From positions 1 to 34,501 of the forward strand of contig JAHCKS010000056.1 in the NCBI GenBank assembly GCA_026125665.1: 34,501 nucleotides of DNA, in the 5' to 3' direction. Below, piece by piece: positions 11,243 through 19,843 of the stretch (the stretch's first letter is position 1; each line of letters opens with the position of its first letter). A program made the translations under genes and the position numbers. The stretch is from Rubrivivax sp. (GTDB lineage Bacteria > Pseudomonadota > Gammaproteobacteria > Burkholderiales > Burkholderiaceae_C). The notes beneath the pieces are model-generated. The model was not told the origin of the DNA, did no database searches, and saw nothing but the letters and a program-made list of their open reading frames with translations.

Positions 11243-11527
11243 GGTCGCGGCGCGCCAAGGACGCCGGGTGGTCGGCTCCGCGAATGTCCTCTTTGGGCGG
11301 ACCAGCTTCGCTGGTCCCCCCAATGCCCCCTTGATTTCGCTGCGCCGACCACCCGCCGTCCTTGGCGTGGCACCGTCGTCTGACTTCGGGGTACCACGAC
11401 GGTGCCGGATCGGGACGGCGGGGTGCCCTGCGCCGTGAAATCAAGGGGGCATCGAGGGGACCAGCGAAGCTGGGCCGCTCGAAGAGGACATTCACGGCGC
11501 AGGGTACCCCGCCGGCGCGATCCCGCC
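11243..11527. repeat. Composite inverted-repeat element, copy 1 (REPIN/MITE-like)
   Basis: This fills most of the 392-bp gene-free stretch between convergent hemL and the DUF6152-type gene. A 57-nt core (11282-11338, plus) recurs inverted at 11437-11493 with 52 of 57 identities. Each core has an inner hairpin, CCAGC-TTC-GCTGG. Core 1 is enclosed by 24-nt complementary arms (11253-11276 / 11344-11367, 23 of 24 pairs). Core 2 is enclosed by about 30-nt arms (11407-11436 / 11494-11523, about 26-27 pairs). Between them is a perfect 11-bp hairpin (GGCACCGTCGT at 11369, ACGACGGTGCC at 11396). The same architecture recurs at 18610-18898. No transposase or target-site duplication is visible. The short peptides it could encode in several frames are not credible genes. 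Confidence 0.85.
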
Positions 11528-17222: not shown

Positions 17223-18518
17223 CTAGCGCACGAGCGTGAAGTCGACGCTCGCCGGCCGGCCGGCCAGGGCCAGCGAGGCCGTGGCCAGCGGCGTCGCCGC
17301 GATGCGCCGGCCGCGCCGATAGACCGCCAGCCGCGTCGCGCGAAGCCGGATCGCCTCGACCGGATCGTGCGCCTGCAGCCACACGAAGTCGGCGTGGTTG
17401 CCGGGCTCGAGCCCGTAGCCTTCCAGTTGCAGGATGCCTGCCGGCGCCGTGGTCACCGCGTCGAAGCACTGCCGCATCGCCGCCTGGCTCGTCATCTGCG
17501 CCACGTGCAGGCCCATCGCCGCCACCTCCAGCATGTCGCCAGAGCCGAGGCTGTACCACGGGTCCATCACGCAGTCGTGGCCGAAGGCCACCGTGAGGCC
17601 GATGGCCAGCTGCTCGGGCACGCGCGTCATGCCGCGGCGCTTCGGGTAGGTGTCGTGCCGGCCCTGCAGCGTGATGTTGATGAGGGGGTTGGCGACGACG
17701 TTCAGCCGCGCCTCGGCCAAGAGCGGCAGCAGCTTGCTGACGTAGTAGTTGTCCATGCTGTGCATGGAGGTGAGGTGCGAGCCGGTGACGCGGCCCTGCA
17801 GGCCGAGCCGCACCGTCTCGGCGGCGAGCGTCTCGACGTGCCGCGACAGCGGGTCGTCGCTCTCGTCGCAGTGCATGTCGACGAGCCGGCCCTGCAGCGC
17901 CGCCAGCTCGCACAGCAGCCGCACGCTCTCGGCGCCTTCGGCCATCGTGCGCTCGAAGTGCGGGATGCCGCCGACGACGTCGACGCCCATCGCCAGCGCG
18001 CGCTTCAGGTTGGTCAGAGCATGCGGCGAACGCAGCACGCCGTCCTGCGGGAAGGCGACGAGCTGCAGGTCGAGGTACGGCGCGACGCGGCGCTTCACGT
18101 CGAGCAACGCCTGCACGGCGAGCAGCCGGTCGTCGCAGACGTCGACGTGCGAGCGGATGGCGAGCAGCCCCCTGGCCACGGCCCAGTCGCAGTAGGCGAG
18201 CGCACGTTCGACGATCGCTTCGTGCGTGAGCTGGGGCTTGAGCTCGCCCCACAGCGCGATGCCTTCGAGCAGCGTGCCGCTCTGGTTGACGCGAGGCAGG
18301 CCGTAGCTCAGCGTGGCGTCCATGTGGAAGTGCGCATCGACGAAGGGCGCGCTGACGAGCAGCCCCGCGGCGTCGAGCACTTCGTGCGCGGCGGGCGCCG
18401 AAGTCGCGTCGACGCCGAGCCCCTCGCGCACCTCGACGATGCGGCCGCCCTCGACGGCGATGCCCACGCCCCGGCGGCCGTCGGGCAGGGTCGCGTTGCG
18501 CACGAGCAGATCCAGCAT
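17223..18518 (-). CDS. codA: Cytosine deaminase (amidohydrolase superfamily)
   Basis: Metal-dependent deaminase converting cytosine to uracil in pyrimidine salvage; 431 residues, like E. coli CodA (~427). Metal and active-site motifs can be read in order: DAHFHMDATLSYG (HxH), QLVAFPQDG, DMHCDESDDPLSRHVE (HCDE, metal His and catalytic Glu), GSHLTSMHSMDNYY (metal His), and FGHDCVMDPWYSLGSGDMLE (metal Asp; E. coli has HDDVFDPWYPLG). The C-terminal beta-sandwich strand is GNHADFVWLQAHDP. ATG 18518 is preceded by GGGGGAG; the frame stays open upstream through the repeat but without homology. It is the last gene of the ABC uptake cluster, separated from the permease gene by a 401-bp repeat-bearing gap, so it may need its own promoter. 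Related deaminases acting on other bases cannot be excluded. Confidence 0.88.
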   Translation of the reverse strand: MLDLLVRNATLPDGRRGVGIAVEGGRIVEVREGLGVDATSAPAAHEVLDAAGLLVSAPFVDAHFHMDATLSYGLPRVNQSGTLLEGIALWGELKPQLTHEAIVERALAYCDWAVARGLLAIRSHVDVCDDRLLAVQALLDVKRRVAPYLDLQLVAFPQDGVLRSPHALTNLKRALAMGVDVVGGIPHFERTMAEGAESVRLLCELAALQGRLVDMHCDESDDPLSRHVETLAAETVRLGLQGRVTGSHLTSMHSMDNYYVSKLLPLLAEARLNVVANPLINITLQGRHDTYPKRRGMTRVPEQLAIGLTVAFGHDCVMDPWYSLGSGDMLEVAAMGLHVAQMTSQAAMRQCFDAVTTAPAGILQLEGYGLEPGNHADFVWLQAHDPVEAIRLRATRLAVYRRGRRIAATPLATASLALAGRPASVDFTLVR

Positions 18519-18574
18519 CTCAGTGGCTCCCCCGCGCGCGGCGCGACTCGCGACCCACGAAACGCTGCTCATGT

Positions 18575-18640
18575 GAGGTCGTCGCGCGCCAAGGCCGCCG
18601 TGGGGTGGAGGTCGTGGCGCGCCAACGCCGCCGGGCGGTC
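18575..18640. repeat. 33-nt tandem duplication at the edge of repeat copy 2
   Basis: Two adjacent 33-nt units (18575-18607 and 18608-18640) share GAGGTCGT, GCGCGCCAA and GCCGCCG blocks with few differences. The second unit forms the left arm of the composite element, so the outer arm has been duplicated outward. Copy 1 near 11243 has a single unit. Confidence 0.65.
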
Positions 18641-18898
18641 GGCTCCGCGAATGTCCTCTTTGAGCGGCCCAGCTTCGCTGGTCCCCCCAATGCCCCCTTG
18701 ATTTCGCTGCGCCGACCACCCGGCGTCCTTGGCGTGGCACTGCCGGTTGTCTTCGACGGGACGCCACCGACGGTGCCGGCTCGGGCCGACGGGGTGCCCT
18801 GCTCCGTGAAATCAAGGGGGCATTCGGGGGACGAGCGAAGCTCGTCCGCCGAAAGAGGACACTCACGGAGCAGGGCACCCCGTCGGTCCGAGCCCGCC
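18610..18898. repeat. Composite inverted-repeat element, copy 2 (REPIN/MITE-like)
   Basis: This occupies the 401-bp gap between codA and the upstream permease gene. Core 1 (18649-18705, plus) and the inverted core 2 (18808-18864) match those at 11282 and 11437. The arms of core 1 (18620-18643 / 18711-18734) pair at 21 of 24 positions. The arms of core 2 (18778-18807 / 18865-18894) pair at 29 of 30. A linker hairpin joins 18736-18747 with 18766-18777. Against copy 1, the core-2 arms differ at stem positions 3, 12 and 26 but remain paired in both copies. The inner hairpin of core 2 changed from GGACCAGC/GCTGGTCC to GGACGAGC/GCTCGTCC, which is also compensated. The rest of the gap shows only the tandem arm units. 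Confidence 0.85.
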
Positions 18899-18919
18899 AC
18901 GACCTGCACAGGATTCATC

Positions 18920-19843
18920 TCAGCGTTCTCCCTTGCGGTAGGGCTTCATCAACGCCTGCGGGTAGGCCGCGCGGCGCGCCACGAGCACCAGCGCGGCGAT
19001 CGACAGCAGGTACGGCAGCATCAGGTACACCTGATACGGCAGCGCGGCACCCGGGCTCTGCTGCAGCCGCAGCTGCAGCGCGTCGAAGAAGCCGAACAGC
19101 AGCGCCCCCAGCAGCGCCTTGCCGGGTCGCCACGAGGCGAAGACGACGAGCGCCACGCAGACCCAGCCGCGGCCGTTGACCATGTTGAAGAAGAAGGCGT
19201 TGAAGGCGGCGAGGGTGAGGAACGAGCCGGCCACGCCCATCAACGCCGAGCCGGCGACGACGGCACTCGTGCGCAGCGCCGCCACCGAGAGGCCCTGCCC
19301 TTCGGCCGCCTGCGGGTTTTCACCCACCATGCGCAGCGCCAGCCCGGCCGGCGTGCGCACGATGAACCAGGCCAGCAGCGGCACGAGCACCAGCGCCAGC
19401 AGTGTCAGCGGCGTCTGCGCCGAGAGCACCGGCAACGGCAGCCAGGTCATCTCGGCGAAGGGCGTCACCGTCGGCGGCGTGTTCACCTTCGGGAAGCCGA
19501 CGCGGTAGCCGTAGTACGAGAGTGCCGTCGCGAGCATCGTGATGCCGAGCCCGGAGACATGCTGCGACAACGCGAGGCCCACGGTGAGGCCGGCGTGCAG
19601 CAGCCCGAACAGCGCGCCCGCGGCAGCCGCGGCCAGCACGCCGCCCCACAGGCCCGCGCCCGCGTACACCGCGAGCCAGCCGATGAAGGCCCCGGCCACC
19701 ATGATCCCCTCGATGCCGAGGTTGAGCACGCCGGCGCGCTCGCACAGCAACACGCCGAGCGTGCCGAGGATGAGCGGCGTGGCGATGCGCAGCACCGCCA
19801 CCCAGAAGGCCTCGCTGGCGACGACGTCGAAGGCTTCGGGCAT
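18920..19843 (-). CDS. ABC transporter permease (BMP/nucleoside-type importer), second subunit
   Basis: Inner-membrane permease of 307 residues belonging to the branched-chain/simple-sugar-type family that works with BMP binding proteins. The N-terminus has AVLRIATPLILGTLGVLLCE then RAGVLNLGIEGIMVAGAFIG, the conserved family signature (GVLNLGIEG). About eight to nine hydrophobic segments follow, with the cytoplasmic loop LRMVGENPQAAEGQGLSVAALR (EAA-like coupling region, GENPxAA). The ATG at 19843 was chosen from the family start; the frame is open further upstream, but that part overlaps the hypothetical gene. It lies 46 bp after the frame-disrupted hypothetical gene and upstream of codA. Substrate inferred from context: nucleosides or nucleobases. 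Confidence 0.9.
   Translation of the reverse strand: MPEAFDVVASEAFWVAVLRIATPLILGTLGVLLCERAGVLNLGIEGIMVAGAFIGWLAVYAGAGLWGGVLAAAAAGALFGLLHAGLTVGLALSQHVSGLGITMLATALSYYGYRVGFPKVNTPPTVTPFAEMTWLPLPVLSAQTPLTLLALVLVPLLAWFIVRTPAGLALRMVGENPQAAEGQGLSVAALRTSAVVAGSALMGVAGSFLTLAAFNAFFFNMVNGRGWVCVALVVFASWRPGKALLGALLFGFFDALQLRLQQSPGAALPYQVYLMLPYLLSIAALVLVARRAAYPQALMKPYRKGER

Follow-up and report, generated by a model that had tools for sequence, protein, structure and literature searches.

Paired inverted hairpins dispersed in a Rubrivivax genome suggest a little-known mobile-element family with shape-based recognition

Results

Anatomy of the locus

The window (the whole stretch of DNA analysed, 34,501 nt of a Rubrivivax sp. 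contig) holds two copies of an element of ~290 bases, the second of which, at 18610–18898, belongs to a dispersed element built of two cores. In each core a long outer stem leads to an inner hairpin by way of a conserved, purine-rich internal loop. Core A of copy 2 (18617–18735; 68.6 bits with the covariance model R1, described below) has its purine-rich strand on the minus strand and is separated by a linker of 42 nt (18736–18777, as delimited by the edges of the model matches) from core B (18778–18896, plus strand, 76.9 bits), which shows the architecture of core A, inverted; the cores of copy 1 lie at 11250–11368 (core A, minus strand, 81.6 bits) and 11407–11525 (core B, plus strand, 69.1 bits). 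Within core B of copy 2, the 5' side of the internal loop (18806–18822, plus strand) reads GTGAAATCAAGGGGGCA and the 3' side (18854–18866, plus strand) reads AGAGGACACTCAC, the respective family consensuses being GCGAARTMAAGGAGGAG and GGGGACATKMGC according to the base counts of 134 pattern-selected cores, and between them stands an inner hairpin of free sequence (18823–18853, plus strand, delimited from fold and sequence). The foot of the inner stem (2–3 bp), e.g., in that same hairpin, is very variable and mostly paired among the copies of one genome.

When folded with RNA parameters, core A of copy 2 reaches −73 kcal/mol on the minus (purine) strand versus −62 on the plus strand, and with DNA parameters −46 on the purine strand versus −31 on its complement, while the purine-strand folds of copy 2 have z scores of −12.3 (core B) and −6.0 (core A) against 200 dinucleotide shuffles.

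The original prediction had placed the element correctly as far as the two cores (18617–18896) are concerned; the whole inserted stretch, however, is longer and spans about 18519–18919. On the side of the downstream gene it ends in a shared module (18519–18576, minus strand), whose minus-strand end, GGGGGAGCCACTGAG, stands directly before a likely ATG (18518–18516, minus strand), which, together with the gene name, represents our own reading of the start of a cytosine-deaminase-like gene. Next to this module the element end is repeated once more in part, as AGGTCGTCGCGCGCCAAGGCCGCCGTGGGGTGG (18577–18609, plus strand), in tandem with the true end, and similar tandem partial repeats (~31–33 bp) beside the true end were also seen at L016, L024 and L010. 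On the side of the upstream gene, an end module at 18897–18919, to which 10 of 30 copies have a similar sequence when compared by eye, reaches the stop codon TCA (18920–18922) of a minus-strand transporter-like gene. The insert is flanked by an 8-bp direct repeat, CATCTCAG (18516–18523 and 18916–18923), which might be either a target duplication or a part of the element end.

Differences between the two copies and covariation of the cores

It had been claimed originally that the arms of copy 2 (18610–18898) differ from those of copy 1 (11243–11527) by three changes, each matched in the opposite arm, and this was borne out by the comparison of the B cores (18778–18896 versus 11407–11525), where 8 of the 36 compared arm pairs differ and three of the differences, in the direction from copy 1 to copy 2, are two-sided (A-T to C-G, G-C to A-T and G-C to T-A, at positions 6, 15 and 29 in the numbering used here, or 3, 12 and 26 in the earlier one, which is offset by 3). 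Also confirmed was the C-G to G-C swap within the inner hairpin, where core B has ACCAGCGAAGCTGG in copy 1 and ACGAGCGAAGCTCG in copy 2. The remaining five arm changes, absent from the original prediction, are one-sided: two are gains of pairing (G.G to G-C and A.G to C-G), two keep the pairing (G-C to G.T and G.T to G-C) and one, at the loop edge, is a loss (A-T to A.C).

A covariance model, R1, was built from 66 cores and comprises 109 positions and 38 pairs, at which 92.2% of the cells are paired; 697 cells are changed on both sides versus 197 in shuffles, the covariation score amounts to 0.746 versus 0.180 for shuffled alignments, and sliding the partner columns by one makes the pairing fall to 36–39%. 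With 150 cores (an alignment fitted to the model) 93.5% of the cells are paired, and 1622 double changes stand against 457 in shuffles, while G-C, C-G, A-T and T-A all occur at most of the outer pairs. In both of these larger alignments, of 66 and of 150 cores, the covariation is far beyond chance when compared with shuffles, and a structural constraint on the cores is close to certain. Three causes had been offered for the paired changes, and selection on base-paired structure is the one that has stood, as the observed covariation was reached by none of 500 shuffles, whereas strand copying and gene conversion between the arms, taken as the main cause, are contradicted by the mismatches: copying would clear away G.T and A.C to the same extent, yet they stand at 441:30, and G.A and A.G together stand at 114:7 against C.T, which is what they would become on the opposite strand.

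Strand asymmetry and the internal loop

Read on the purine strand, the outer-stem cells of 284 distinct cores (300 aligned rows less 16 that were dropped as duplicates or for having no GGACA on that strand, with perhaps a small number of genuine but diverged cores among them) comprise 5841 Watson-Crick pairs, 441 G.T and 30 A.C, followed by 114 G.A/A.G, 43 G.G, 7 C.T, 7 C.C, 6 T.T and 3 A.A. G.T on this strand therefore makes up ~7% of the cells and is 15 times commoner than A.C, the ratio for the window's genome alone being 33:3. As a G.T on one strand is an A.C on the other, equal counts of the two would be expected from neutral change or from copying between the arms; their asymmetry marks selection on a single strand, and it is the purine-rich strand whose fold selection maintains. 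The two cores of a pair show about the same ratio, 82:3 in the one that the upstream gene would read as antisense and 79:7 in the sense core, so the selection is not tied to read-through from the host gene, and read-through RNA as the sole selected form was rejected for this equality of the two cores.

The two sides of the internal loop on the purine strand, GCGAARTMAAGGRGGA and GRGGACAYKMGCRG, are preserved across genera among the 134 pattern-selected cores, the search pattern behind which held a large part of the loop constant and admitted nothing but purines at the exchange positions. Among these cores, GCGAAG partners ATGAGC (with two G.A mismatches), GCGAAA partners ATTCGC (Watson-Crick) and GCGAGG partners ACGAGC, with 4 exceptions of mixed type. 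The central position of GGRGG/GGRGG is A/G in 100 cores, G/A in 29, A/A in 5 and G/G, a state that the pattern had permitted, in 0 (Fisher p ~1e-24, a value that ignores relatedness). The same position in the 284 cores aligned by the model, many of whose loci had originally been found by the same pattern, is A/G in 181, G/A in 93, A/A in 8, C/G in 1, a gap in 1 and G/G in 0. Since the two cores of the dimers L157, L166 and L179 are in opposite A/G and G/A states, the exchange has recurred, and a reciprocal A.G to G.A exchange is beyond the reach of copying, which contradicts arm copying as the main cause. Given that arm copying explains neither the G.T/A.C asymmetry nor this exchange within the loop, it is a one-strand structure that is under selection.

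Copies and distribution

Searching the window's genome (6.3 Mb in 268 contigs) at the DNA level brought up 39 further full or partial copies among the 40 scored of 136 candidates, and at a threshold of 50 bits R1 finds at least 87 non-overlapping cores there, i.e., at least 39 inverted pairs and 9 unpaired cores (C195, C222 and seven stronger ones), the 39 pairs being a lower bound obtained with 150 of 8598 candidates scored. All 39 pairs have the (−,+) arrangement, and of 114 core pairs collected overall (111 distinct, as three are loci counted twice) all 114 have both purine strands facing outward, with a gap between the model edges of 16–67 nt in 97 pairs and 85–171 nt in 17. For the single cores, a loose motif search within 330 bp on the linker side found no full partner motif pair in 26 of 27 cases, with a partial motif at L196 and weak lone matches at L143 and L087. 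At L175, upstream of 579, the partner core seems to have been reduced to a plain palindrome lacking the internal loop and the inner hairpin.

Of the other genomes from the same genus, G009 and G012 have many copies and others show weaker matches. A pattern scan of one genome per species (84,980 species) matched at least 116 stretches, and the genera among the matches listed include Hydrogenophaga, Variovorax, Rhodoferax, Polaromonas, Ramlibacter, Rubrivivax, Methylibium and others, as well as Sulfurisoma and, furthermore, Lysobacter, Pseudoxanthomonas and Thermomonas, which we take to represent Burkholderiales, Rhodocyclales and Xanthomonadaceae. With even sampling the occurrence proves patchy: under stricter filters the element was seen in 9 of 200 genomes from the order and in 4 of 377 from the class, the window's genome being included in both counts. 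Furthermore, 15 host genomes have from 9 to 91 model matches each, some of which are probably antisense shadows.

Neither the window nor nine other loci with canonical cores matched any Rfam 15 family at the gathering score, and the weak matches, mostly to microRNA models, were far below it. Viral contigs gave no exact match to the search pattern and plasmids no match to the window copy, and a phage or plasmid origin was set aside on these two results; three Variovorax replicons larger than 1 Mb weakly match a Hydrogenophaga copy. In the literature covered, which lay largely outside subscription journals, no title or abstract opening names the element family.

Genomic position and end modules

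With genes called by our own codon-composition heuristic, the 85 gaps that hold an element comprise 47 codirectional, 32 convergent and 6 divergent ones, as opposed to 73, 22 and 42, respectively, among 137 background gaps of 50–600 bp, and 236, 72 and 72 among all 380 background gaps of up to 600 bp. The resulting depletion of divergent gaps has Fisher p values, relatedness ignored, of 2e-5 against the 50–600 bp background and 0.006 against all gaps, the divergent counts themselves having varied by run (0 of 39, then 11 of 101 in a larger set, then 6 of 85 with repeats removed and gaps redefined). Core edges lie mostly 15–110 bp past a stop codon; a TGA-specific target is not established (96 of 121 stops near elements are TGA versus 272 of 385 elsewhere, p = 0.06).

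The end module of ~50 nt facing the downstream gene is shared by 8 of 30 copies in the window's genome, seen as it is at window 18519–18576 and at the ends of L012, L016, L017, L018, L024, L027 and L028, and it finishes in GGAGC-NACTGA(G/C), at or no more than 3 nt from the start codons of different genes, so that, judging by its sequence, it looks like a Shine-Dalgarno (ribosome-binding) site carried by the element itself. The linkers of other genera share no sequence when compared by eye, and a consensus scan of 18500–18960, covering promoters of the sigma-70 type, found no sigma-70-like promoter, which led to transcription from the linker being rejected; one terminator-like site was found in the same stretch, where 0.2 would be expected.

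Filled and empty sites

The genes orthologous to those flanking the window copy are 18 nt apart in G022 versus 401 nt in the window; no second empty site for this copy was found among the other genomes compared, the genes in G016 being farther apart. In Variovorax, site 1 is empty in G283, G289, G259 and G260, the flanking genes there adjoining each other directly, and also in G266, which has another short spacer in its place; it is filled in G247, G261, G270, G288 and G255, and altered or partial in G268 and G264. Site 2, read in 12 genomes, lacks the element in 8, carries it in G259 and G268 and holds a remnant or other sequence in two, while site 3 is filled in G261 and, of 8 genomes, empty in six and altered in two. 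As there are orthologous sites without the element, the window copy's own among them, it is close to certain that the element is mobile. Direct repeats are present at the window copy (the 8 bp of CATCTCAG) and, as a 9-bp near-repeat (8 of 9), at one Variovorax copy; the other two sites in Variovorax show none that is clear.

Two further observations were made at one Variovorax locus. Two copies of the element flank a segment of ~9 kb (L262:8473–17938) whose arrangement differs from that in G289, possibly through recombination between the copies; in G289 only ~20 nt separate the outer flanks. A different repeat of ~705 bp at L262:16933–17651, with two inverted arms of ~250 bp (TTTCTTTTGCTTCGCCAAAAGAAAGTAAGC...), has many matches on both strands in related genomes.

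Discussion

The reading that seems to fit best, with a probability of roughly 60%, is that of a non-autonomous mobile element made of paired inverted hairpins, which works in a REPIN-like manner with much larger cores. The outward purine strands give each DNA strand one "sense" core; a trans-acting enzyme might bind the folded purine-strand hairpin through the internal loop whenever it becomes single-stranded, most likely as ssDNA during replication or transcription, and the bound enzyme would spread the element. Paired changes would accumulate under such a regime, given that any change keeping the fold would keep the copy mobile. The molecule under selection would, by preference, be the folded ssDNA as a substrate of transposition, because selection acts equally on the two cores of a pair, and their inverted arrangement is that of transposon ends.

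The main rival, considerably less probable though still to be reckoned with, is that the selected molecule is RNA, each core being a structured module, e.g., a protein-binding site that protects or regulates mRNA 3' ends, with the elements having spread as tolerated or useful insertions past stop codons. The excess of G.T (~7%, 15 times A.C) resembles that of G.U in RNA, the elements do lie past stop codons and avoid divergent pairs, and tandem G.A pairs alternating with Watson-Crick pairs, as in the internal loop, are familiar in RNA. The mismatch order, G.T > G.A > G.G > A.C, however, also fits the stability of mismatches in ssDNA, the core that the upstream gene would read as antisense shows much the same asymmetry, any transcript across the element would contain only one sense core, and neither a shared linker sequence nor a sigma-70-like promoter in 18500–18960 was found that would speak for RNA made from the element.

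That these are ordinary REPINs with unusually long REPs, moved by a resident RAYT (PF01797), seems improbable, even though the inverted hairpin pairs, the many copies and the extragenic position agree with it and PF01797 scores over its cut-off in 16 of 22 hosts (mostly as a single match; 18 of 22 at E ≤ 0.01). The remaining four hosts (G000, G012, G184 and G196) gave no PF01797 match at E ≤ 0.01, and three of them (G012, G184 and G196) are listed as 99–100% complete and are rich in copies; not a single core lies near any of 33 PF01797 loci at E ≤ 0.01, examined mostly over ~1.5 kb on each side, and on these two results RAYT was rejected as a necessary mobiliser. Y1 genes are also present in same-genus genomes without a DNA match to the element (e.g., G010, G011 and G013), and the core is ~110 nt long rather than a short palindrome headed by GTAG. 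Clustering of 808 open frames from neighbouring genes brought forward no transposase-like family, its largest clusters resembling compositional noise or wrong frames, and no core pair with a long insert, i.e., a possible autonomous form, was seen by eye in the pair lists; the PF01797, neighbour-gene and long-insert searches thus yielded neither a mobilising enzyme nor an autonomous copy.

It is similarly unlikely that the element is a MITE of a DDE transposon that cuts dsDNA and leaves a target duplication of 8–9 bp, the hairpins serving some other purpose. The inverted ends, the 8-bp repeat around the window copy and the near-repeat at one Variovorax copy would all suit such a transposon, but two further sites in Variovorax show no clear duplication, the motif that is repeated, CTGANATG, doubles as a stop/start junction and could be part of the element end, and recognition of dsDNA has no need of strand-specific folding. 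As for template switching or gene conversion between the arms in the absence of any selection for structure, long inverted repeats are prone to arm-templated correction, which could yield some of the paired changes and may account for a minor share of them, but as a general explanation it is very improbable, for it predicts G.T equal to A.C (441:30 observed), would have erased the mismatched internal loop that is kept across genera, and is at odds with the reciprocal A.G/G.A exchange.

Returning to the mobile-element reading, the element might, as a tentative extension, represent a new class, characterised by a large purine-strand hairpin as substrate, a non-Watson-Crick core (GGAGG facing GGGGG with an exchangeable A.G), an enzyme other than Y1, and entry at stop codons with a ribosome-binding site brought along by the element. 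Were this true, such elements would insert immediately downstream of stop codons, which in some lineages are part of coupled stop/start junctions, and there the ribosome-binding site of the element end would keep the downstream gene readable. A family that spans several proteobacterial groups and reaches tens of copies in certain genomes, with exceptionally clear covariation and no Rfam match, could serve as a test case for recognition by shape over sequence, for the covariation of a non-Watson-Crick A.G pair, and for how a mobile element might enter an operon without breaking it.

Comparison with known systems

IS200/IS605 ends are imperfect hairpins read on one strand, and both lie on the same strand with the gene between them, unlike the cores of the element, which are inverted around a short linker (114 of 114 pairs). 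Bacterial MITEs are likewise short, with inverted ends and insertion polymorphism; here, however, it is the fold and not the end sequence that is conserved across genera, no parent transposon was met in the loci examined, and repeats of 8–9 bp that might be target-site duplications are found at two sites and are unclear at two. Strong covariation and a conserved internal loop are reminiscent of the structured RNAs of Rfam, from which the element differs in having no gathering-score match in the window or the nine other loci.

The closest likeness is arguably to REPINs and REP-BIMEs, given the two inverted hairpins with a short spacer (114 of 114), the extragenic position, the many copies and no evident coding capacity. 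It may extend to strand-specific recognition with conserved stem mismatches: PMC8266576 describes TnpAREP binding one strand, E. coli REPs requiring stem mismatches and, for IS200/IS605, ends that are imperfect one-strand hairpins. REPs, per PMC3733652 (in which none of six genus names sought was present), are palindromes of 20–40 bp tagged GTAG or CGTC, whereas the core is ~110 nt long, has a conserved purine internal loop set between its two helices, and has no GTAG-type tetranucleotide at its 5' foot, GCGAARTMAAGGAGGAG being one side of the internal loop in the core consensus. For a resident RAYT, typical of REPINs, 4 of 22 hosts gave no PF01797 match, and the flanking of the RAYT gene by repeats has no counterpart at the 33 PF01797 loci (0 cores). 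The element is therefore REPIN-like in its arrangement and strand preference, though not necessarily a REPIN, and the evidence as a whole points to a little-known family of mobile elements that is recognised by its shape.
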